Shown here one piece after another: positions 57,177 to 58,013 of a stretch of DNA of 64,000 bases. The position numbers and the translations under genes were made by a program. Source of the stretch: Oceanicola sp. 502str15. GTDB taxonomy: Bacteria; Pseudomonadota; Alphaproteobacteria; Rhodobacterales; Rhodobacteraceae. Under the pieces are notes generated by a model that worked only from the letters and a program-made list of their open reading frames with translations, searched no databases and was not told the origin of the DNA. Location of the stretch: NCBI RefSeq assembly GCF_024105635.1, contig NZ_WYDQ01000001.1, positions 1,736,001 through 1,800,000 on the forward strand, read 5' to 3'. Numbering within the stretch: position 1 is the first letter of the stretch; every line of letters starts with the position of its first letter.

Positions 57177-57539
<363 letters not shown>

Positions 57540-57560: not shown

Positions 57561-57594
57561 TTGCCGAACCACCCGCGATGTTCTATATTTGTTC
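57561..57594 (+). promoter_or_regulatory. LexA-type (SOS) promoter
   Basis: TTGCCG (57561-57566), a 17-bp spacer and TATATT (57584-57589) form a promoter. GTTC (57580-57583), 7 bp and GTTC (57591-57594) form the alphaproteobacterial LexA box overlapping the -10. The ATG is at 57597, so transcription would start at about the start codon. Confidence 0.75.
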
Positions 57595-57596
57595 TC

Positions 57597-58013
57597 ATGC
57601 CCCATTCCCCCGACTGGCCCCTCCCGCCCCGCGCCATCCCCGCCGCCCTGCTGAACCGCCCGCCCACCGGGGCGCGGGTCACCGTGGCCGGGCTGGTGCT
57701 GGTGCGCCAGAGGCCGGGCACCGCCAAGGGGGTGATCTTCGTGACGTTGGAGGATGAAACCGGCACCTGCAACGTGGTGGTCTGGGCCAAGACCTACGAG
57801 CGCTTCCGCCGCGCCGTGATCGCCGGGCGGCTGCTGCGGGTGACGGGGCGCATCCAGCGCGAGCAGGAGGTGGTGCATATCGTGGCCGAGCAGATCGAGG
57901 ATATCTCCGCCCTGCTCGACACCCTGCTCACGCCGCCCGCCCCGCAACCCCCTGTTGCAAAAGGGGCGCAAGAGCCCGCCCCTCGCCCCGCCCTCCCCGC
58001 TCCCGGGCTATGA
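57597..58013 (+). CDS. Stand-alone C-terminal OB domain of error-prone polymerase DnaE2
   Basis: 138 residues. The middle part (about 28-105: GARVTVAGLVLVRQRPGTAKG, VIFVTLEDETGTCNVVVWAK, RLLRVTGRIQREQEVVHIVA) is the C-terminal OB-fold of DnaE2/ImuC, the SOS translesion polymerase. All other DnaE2 domains are missing, and no such sequence lies upstream. The promoter has a LexA-type GTTC-N7-GTTC box and no room for a ribosome site, suggesting a leaderless mRNA. It may be a deletion scar joining an SOS promoter to the gene end, or a small SOS-induced OB protein. The last 30 residues are Pro/Ala-rich and may be degraded. Confidence 0.85.
   Translation: MPHSPDWPLPPRAIPAALLNRPPTGARVTVAGLVLVRQRPGTAKGVIFVTLEDETGTCNVVVWAKTYERFRRAVIAGRLLRVTGRIQREQEVVHIVAEQIEDISALLDTLLTPPAPQPPVAKGAQEPAPRPALPAPGL

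Follow-up and report, generated by a model that had tools for sequence, protein, structure and literature searches.

The 64,000-nt stretch of the Oceanicola sp. 502str15 genome analysed here (NCBI RefSeq assembly GCF_024105635.1, contig NZ_WYDQ01000001.1, positions 1,736,001 to 1,800,000 of the forward strand; hereafter the window) carries near its end a small gene, preceded by a LexA-type box, that encodes an OB domain of the kind found at the C-terminus of the error-prone DNA polymerase DnaE2. The features of the locus are as follows.

57561 to 57566, + strand: -35 hexamer TTGCCG, read from the window sequence; a TTGC-like position is conserved upstream in 55 relatives
57584 to 57589, + strand: -10 hexamer TATATT, lying inside the LexA-type box; TAT-N-TT is conserved in 55 relatives
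57580 to 57594, + strand: LexA-type box GTTCTATATTTGTTC, of the form GTTC-N7-GTTC, exact in 72/79 orthologous and 77/80 titled loci
57597 to 58013, + strand: 138-residue stand-alone DnaE2 OB-domain gene, the proposed OB subunit, acting in trans, of a split DnaE2
57177 to 57500, - strand: divergent 2Fe-2S ferredoxin-like gene, a marker of the locus that lies outside the system; its motif is found in the fetched stretch of 73/79 orthologues

The two hexamers are separated by a 17-nt spacer (TTGCCG-N17-TATATT) and form the sole sigma-70-like site detected between 57400 and 58200 (9/12 matches; shuffled sequences gave a mean of 0.0, standard deviation 0.1). The half-sites of the box (GTTC at 57580-57583 and at 57591-57594, with N7 between them) enclose the -10, and the box ends 2 bp before the ATG (57597-57599) of the OB gene, whose 138 codons run to a stop at 58011-58013; the promoter geometry described in the initial annotation, with a GTTC-N7-GTTC box overlying the -10 just ahead of the start codon, thus matches the coordinates. 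Since only 7 nt separate the -10 from this ATG, the mRNA is expected to be leaderless or nearly so, and LexA bound to the box should block RNA polymerase. The pattern alone is not rare (the window has two matches where 0.97 are expected, and the genome 66 against 75 for a reversed control pattern), and the significance of the box therefore comes from its conservation in relatives. We take GTTC-N7-GTTC to be the alphaproteobacterial LexA box and the neighbouring divergent gene, from its Cys motif and with no family search made, to be ferredoxin-like. The LexA assignment is in line with PMC6473078, where a group with a ‘GTTC consensus’ is described.

The 138-residue protein matches Pfam PF01336 (OB; 1.8e-15), and its best NCBIfam model is that of error-prone DNA polymerase (NF004225), of which it covers positions 943-1040 of 1047, in keeping with the earlier view that the gene encodes the C-terminal OB fold of DnaE2 and nothing else. 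By itself it scores 111 bits against NF004225, below the curated cut-off of 939 bits. PF01336, the DnaE models, the predicted fold and a structure match all identify it as a DnaE-type OB domain, and a sequence search against solved structures gave weak matches only (best E 0.0069; 5fku, Pol III alpha, 0.085). The fold suggests that the protein may bind single-stranded DNA (ssDNA). Its relatives are 106-185 residues long, save for one script-chosen frame of 253, and 70/79 of them carry WPxPP near the N-terminus. This motif was not seen in the linker of the full-length DnaE2 of one related genome (G276), and the conserved N-terminal segment that contains it is a candidate docking peptide.

The initial annotation missed the genome’s own DnaE2, which lies outside the window and lacks exactly this OB domain. 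A DnaE2 model search of the genome (G000; 4.44 Mb, 2 contigs, completeness 100) found a single DnaE2 at C1:2683202-2686069 on the minus strand; it spans 3-938 of the 1047 model positions, and its 1223.8 bits exceed the NF004225 cut-off. In the same search the window OB gene, about 0.89 Mb away, fills positions 942-1039, and the remaining two matches are DnaE1 and one weak OB match. The DnaE2 frame of 991 residues, which ends 33 residues past HPVGLLRAVLTPEPG, has Pol III alpha, finger and HhH domains and, unlike the usual architecture, no C-terminal OB domain on the same chain. It contains PDIDVDF and KVDVLALGML, which we take to be the catalytic aspartate motifs; regular expressions for them are matched in 58/68 truncated sequences. 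Because this DnaE2 ends just before the OB domain and the OB gene supplies the missing positions, the two would together make up one DnaE2 in two genes. That the OB gene replaces a missing dnaE2 was ruled out, as the dnaE2 core is present in the genome.

This arrangement recurs across the family. In a set of 295 family genomes, each from a different genus, the OB protein was matched in 260, and matches to the DnaE2 model end either at 1039-1047 or at about 937-962 (contig-end pieces aside), with a few continuing past a stop codon. A separate OB gene accompanies truncated DnaE2 in 125/129 genomes and is present in at least 2/163 without it (one contig piece set aside; Fisher p = 1.9e-73, phylogeny ignored); separate OB genes are thus spread over more than 120 genera. 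Divided by class, a separate OB gene was found in 123/127 genomes with truncated DnaE2 only (after exception checks), in 2/2 with both forms, in at least 2/128 with full-length DnaE2 only (by the script rule; one, G021, was read as a full-length contig piece) and in at least 1/35 without DnaE2, with 3 of the 295 placed in no DnaE2 class. In G035 the truncated DnaE2 and the OB gene share a contig of 3,789,584 bp, and a full-length DnaE2 lies on another of 126,304 bp. The class sets were compiled by hand from several search tables: DnaE2 was first scored on two candidates per genome, from the best rows, and scoring was then completed for 149 and 28 genomes, and three fragmented genomes (G068, G118, G158) were counted as truncated, their piece ending at 938-942. 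The OB counts are likewise of best matches, so that low-similarity separate OB genes in full-length-only or DnaE2-free genomes could escape. Several apparent exceptions were set aside on inspection: in G009 the truncated match and a short OB frame sit at opposite ends of a single 217,585-bp contig, G178 and G021 were read as contig pieces of full-length genes, and G233 has the same locus with one stop.

A wider search of 337 genomes (332 outside the family) matched 154, 5 of them within the family. Among the matches listed from outside it, ten places have open frames shorter than 700 residues; three of these (G591, G353, G488) were read as decayed, frame-broken and contig-end full-length genes, and the coordinates of the other seven place them close to the start of a contig. 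At L344 in G591 a broken imuA-imuB-dnaE2 set is headed by the box GTTCTTGTTTTGTTC.

The two halves also appear to have evolved together. In 53 of 56 genomes, those for which DnaE1 was fetched, OB distances track polymerase-core distances with r 0.710, and the partial correlation given DnaE1 is 0.551 (none of 1000 permutations as high, maximum 0.276; jackknife 0.539-0.570). The corresponding values are 0.174 for OB against DnaE1 given the core and 0.112 for the neighbouring ferredoxin against the core given DnaE1, and with ferredoxin as the lone control OB and core correlate at 0.678 (56 genomes). By these sequence distances, OB and polymerase core co-evolve beyond the DnaE1 and ferredoxin controls.

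Both halves are preceded by LexA-type boxes. An exact box in either orientation lies in the 260 nt ahead of the OB core at 72/79 loci (71 GTTC-oriented), with 16-18 nt from box start to ATG in 55 of the 79; the upstream profile of 55 loci shows a TTGC-like -35 and TAT-N-TT within the box, and the ferredoxin-like motif lies nearby in 73/79. This survey covers part of the OB-bearing genomes, with starts chosen by script, partly from the box; at G083 a late start made the script skip a box that is seen in the locus translations. In an overlapping set of titled OB loci, exact GTTC-N7-GTTC lies within 200 nt in 77/80, with the 16-18 spacing in 68. The LexA-type promoter of the initial annotation is therefore conserved, and many short orthologues share the box, as expected of the small SOS-type OB protein that it had offered as one possibility. 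Ahead of truncated dnaE2, all 58 scored loci show a box that is exact (17 loci) or has a single mismatch, compared with 8.9% (1.1% exact) of random 150-bp pieces of dnaE2 loci; two of 60 loci were dropped, their start motif missing, and the box match of G162 looks fortuitous. One further exact box in G000, the AT-rich GTTCATTATTTGTTC (C1:2011320-2011334, minus strand; L098), stands ahead of a frame of 142 residues that starts 49 nt after the box start and is presumably glyoxalase/VOC-like.

DnaE2 is the polymerase of the SOS mutasome ImuA-ImuB-DnaE2, and a search for the complete imuA-imuB-dnaE2 set proposed in the initial annotation gave a divided answer: all three genes are present in the genome, but apart from each other and in no single operon. 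On C1 the imuA-like gene lies at about 110 kb, the OB gene at 1.79 Mb, imuB at 2.67 Mb and dnaE2 at 2.68 Mb; imuB and dnaE2 are 11 kb apart, with other open frames between them. An exact box begins 26 nt ahead of the start of imuB (IMS domain 7.4e-15), and no imuA-like frame was found ahead of this gene at that locus. The imuA-like gene (C1:110142-110765, minus strand; start chosen by hand) follows an exact box, which ends 14 nt upstream of the ATG. It matches alignment A2 (ImuA) at 6.0e-24 and NF033429 at 3.1e-6 (27 bits, against a cut-off of 150), was missed by one distant query and recovered with an alignment query, and its putative ImuA identity is the weakest among the three mutasome genes. 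About 0.45 kb downstream of it lies another exact box, GTTCTTTTTCTGTTC (C1:109670-109684, minus strand; L097), in front of a gene that we take to be class II ribonucleotide reductase-like, possibly pointing to SOS-controlled supply of deoxynucleotides.

The same dispersal is seen in other genomes. The imuA-like gene and imuB are on separate contigs or distant in G000, G035 (chromosome), G051, G083, G044, G064, G180 and G276. Exact boxes lie directly upstream of the imuA-like frames in G044, G200 and G141 (all three truncated-genome imuA loci examined) and just upstream of imuB in G035 (chromosome), G051, G083, G044, G180 and G276; none was found at the G064 imuB. Where DnaE2 is encoded in a full-length cassette, imuA, imuB and dnaE2 stand in a row in 7/7 cassettes read (the 126-kb contig of G035, G261, G237, G202, G165, G178, G029), with an exact box ahead of six and none ahead of that in G029. 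In four of these (the G035 126-kb contig, G261, G178 and G029; L353, L359, L360 and L361) the first frame is one that we take, from its MCNLYSQTK start, to be SRAP-like. According to PMC9426580, an imuA-imuB-dnaE2 cassette is borne by the 126-kb plasmid of Dinoroseobacter shibae.

When truncation is mapped onto a FastTree tree of 112 DnaE2 cores, 3 changes are needed, compared with 34.9 for shuffled labels. A branch with support 100 has all truncated cores except that of G194 on the same side; the full-length G276 adjoins this group and the full-length G292 lies inside it. The simplest history is one fission followed by relocation of the OB gene to the ferredoxin locus. As G194 falls outside the main truncated group, a second fission is possible, and the alternative history may have involved two. 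In G194 a truncated dnaE2 is followed by one opposite-strand frame, presumably dimethylargininase-like, and then by an OB gene with its own box and a DnaE2-type tail (HPRDQ..SRDFH), with adjacent imuA and imuB on another contig; from its gene order it looks like an intermediate stage. Two full-length DnaE2s stand out. That of G292 (L170), with a core within the truncated group and an OB domain among full-length OBs, is a possible re-fusion or hybrid, and that of G276 (L165), near the truncated group and with an OB domain close to the separate OBs, may be an unsplit relative or a re-fusion.

Since the core lacks an OB domain, the OB gene supplies it, the halves co-occur, both are boxed and they co-evolve, we consider it highly probable that the window gene encodes an OB subunit separated from a split DnaE2, and that the ImuA-ImuB-DnaE2 mutasome is here dispersed over four LexA-controlled genes, with DnaE2 as two chains. 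In our proposal, gene fission early in the family (including Rhodobacter and Ruegeria) would have parted the C-terminal OB domain from DnaE2, and the OB part would have been retained as a separate gene with a LexA-type box ahead of it. LexA would occupy the -10 and block the OB promoter until, upon DNA damage, it is cleaved and the leaderless or nearly leaderless OB mRNA is made. The OB protein would then dock on truncated DnaE2, perhaps via WPxPP and perhaps with ImuB or ImuA, and restore binding of the template strand in translesion synthesis. With its genes in four separate places, the mutasome would come together from parts that are each induced on their own.

Several observations weigh against this proposal. 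The co-occurrence test takes no account of phylogeny, the OB sequences are too short to give a well-resolved tree, and the box of the genome’s own dnaE2 has one mismatch (GAACAAAACGTGAAA). No OB gene was found in four truncated genomes (G044, G064, G162 and G180, drafts of 100-490 contigs; G162 has a weak OB match of 1.7e-5). G051, reported 100% complete, has an OB gene and imuB, each with an exact box (L351, L358), and an imuA-like match, with no DnaE2 match; the OB protein may therefore have another partner, or the loss of DnaE2 may be recent. G237 retains an OB gene with a full-length DnaE2 and the split polymerase only as remnants. G276 has imuA and imuB on other contigs yet a full-length DnaE2, and G194 has them adjacent yet a split one, suggesting that dispersal and splitting are separate events; G276 and the DnaE2-less G051 likewise indicate that dispersal is not strictly tied to the split. 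Finally, an OB-less DnaE2 might simply need no OB domain, and we infer the physical and functional link between OB protein and DnaE2 from sequence.

A further, rather unlikely elaboration is that the OB protein, once detached, serves as a switch whose dose is set separately: it would be made from its leaderless SOS transcript on its own schedule, and DnaE2 would become mutagenic only once enough OB had docked; in addition, where DnaE2 is absent, as in G051, the OB protein may act with ImuA-ImuB. Alternatively, the OB gene might have left its DnaE2 function behind to become an independent SOS-induced ssDNA-binding protein, with truncated DnaE2 working alone. OB folds often bind single strands. 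G051 and the four truncated genomes in which the gene was not found fit this explanation, as do the DnaE2s without an OB domain mentioned in PMC3919608. However, we consider it improbable given the tight co-occurrence with truncated DnaE2, the co-evolution of OB and core beyond the controls, and the state of the gene in G237, where only polymerase remnants persist and the OB protein has no WPxPP and a long branch (0.83, against a median end branch of 0.26). It is very unlikely that the box is fortuitous or bound by another regulator, placing the gene outside the SOS response: the pattern is no commoner than its reversed control and a role for LexA is read from sequence, but like boxes precede truncated dnaE2, imuB, imuA-like and OB genes, and the OB spacing is conserved. 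That the gene, which corresponds to just the end of a longer family, is a pseudogene formed by a deletion that joined an SOS promoter by chance to a broken dnaE2 end, as the initial annotation had also suggested, can be dismissed almost entirely, since orthologues with the same box occupy nearly all loci of both sets, separate OB genes occur in over 120 genera, and the ratios of nonsynonymous to synonymous substitution in 10 pairs (NG86 dN/dS 0.05-0.25; four of the pairs have a dS close to 1 or higher) look like purifying selection.

A split DnaE2 with a separate OB gene would be a variant of the ImuA-ImuB-DnaE2 system. With the mutasome of the DnaE2A group (PMC12926913, consulted in part) it shares DnaE2, homologues of ImuB and ImuA, and LexA-type boxes; it differs in that its genes are dispersed and DnaE2 is divided into core and OB chains, an arrangement that the sections seen of that paper do not report. 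The main text of that classification of DnaE2 systems does not mention ‘OB domain’, ‘OB-fold’, ‘Rhodobacter’ or ‘Alphaproteobacteria’. It does note that iPolY and a separate ImuB-C, found in DnaE2X systems, may represent a split form, which would likewise be one mutasome protein in two chains, but there it is the accessory protein that is divided and here the polymerase itself. Several DnaE2 sequences without an OB domain are noted in PMC3919608, where the sections seen mention no OB domain in trans. The cyanobacterial DnaE described in the same source is also encoded in two pieces, but is split by an intein, whereas the OB proteins here, one script-chosen frame of 253 apart, are only 106-185 residues long (no intein search was made). 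We found no report of an OB domain acting in trans for DnaE2 in the open-licence literature, as far as its accessible text goes.

Current annotations of these genes (‘hypothetical protein’, ‘OB-fold nucleic acid binding domain-containing protein’, ‘DNA polymerase III alpha subunit’) mask what is likely a mutasome part. If our reading is correct, a naturally split C-family polymerase with a damage-induced OB subunit would offer a natural experiment on the role of the OB domain in DnaE2, and an SOS mutasome of four genes would be expected in more than 120 genera of the family.
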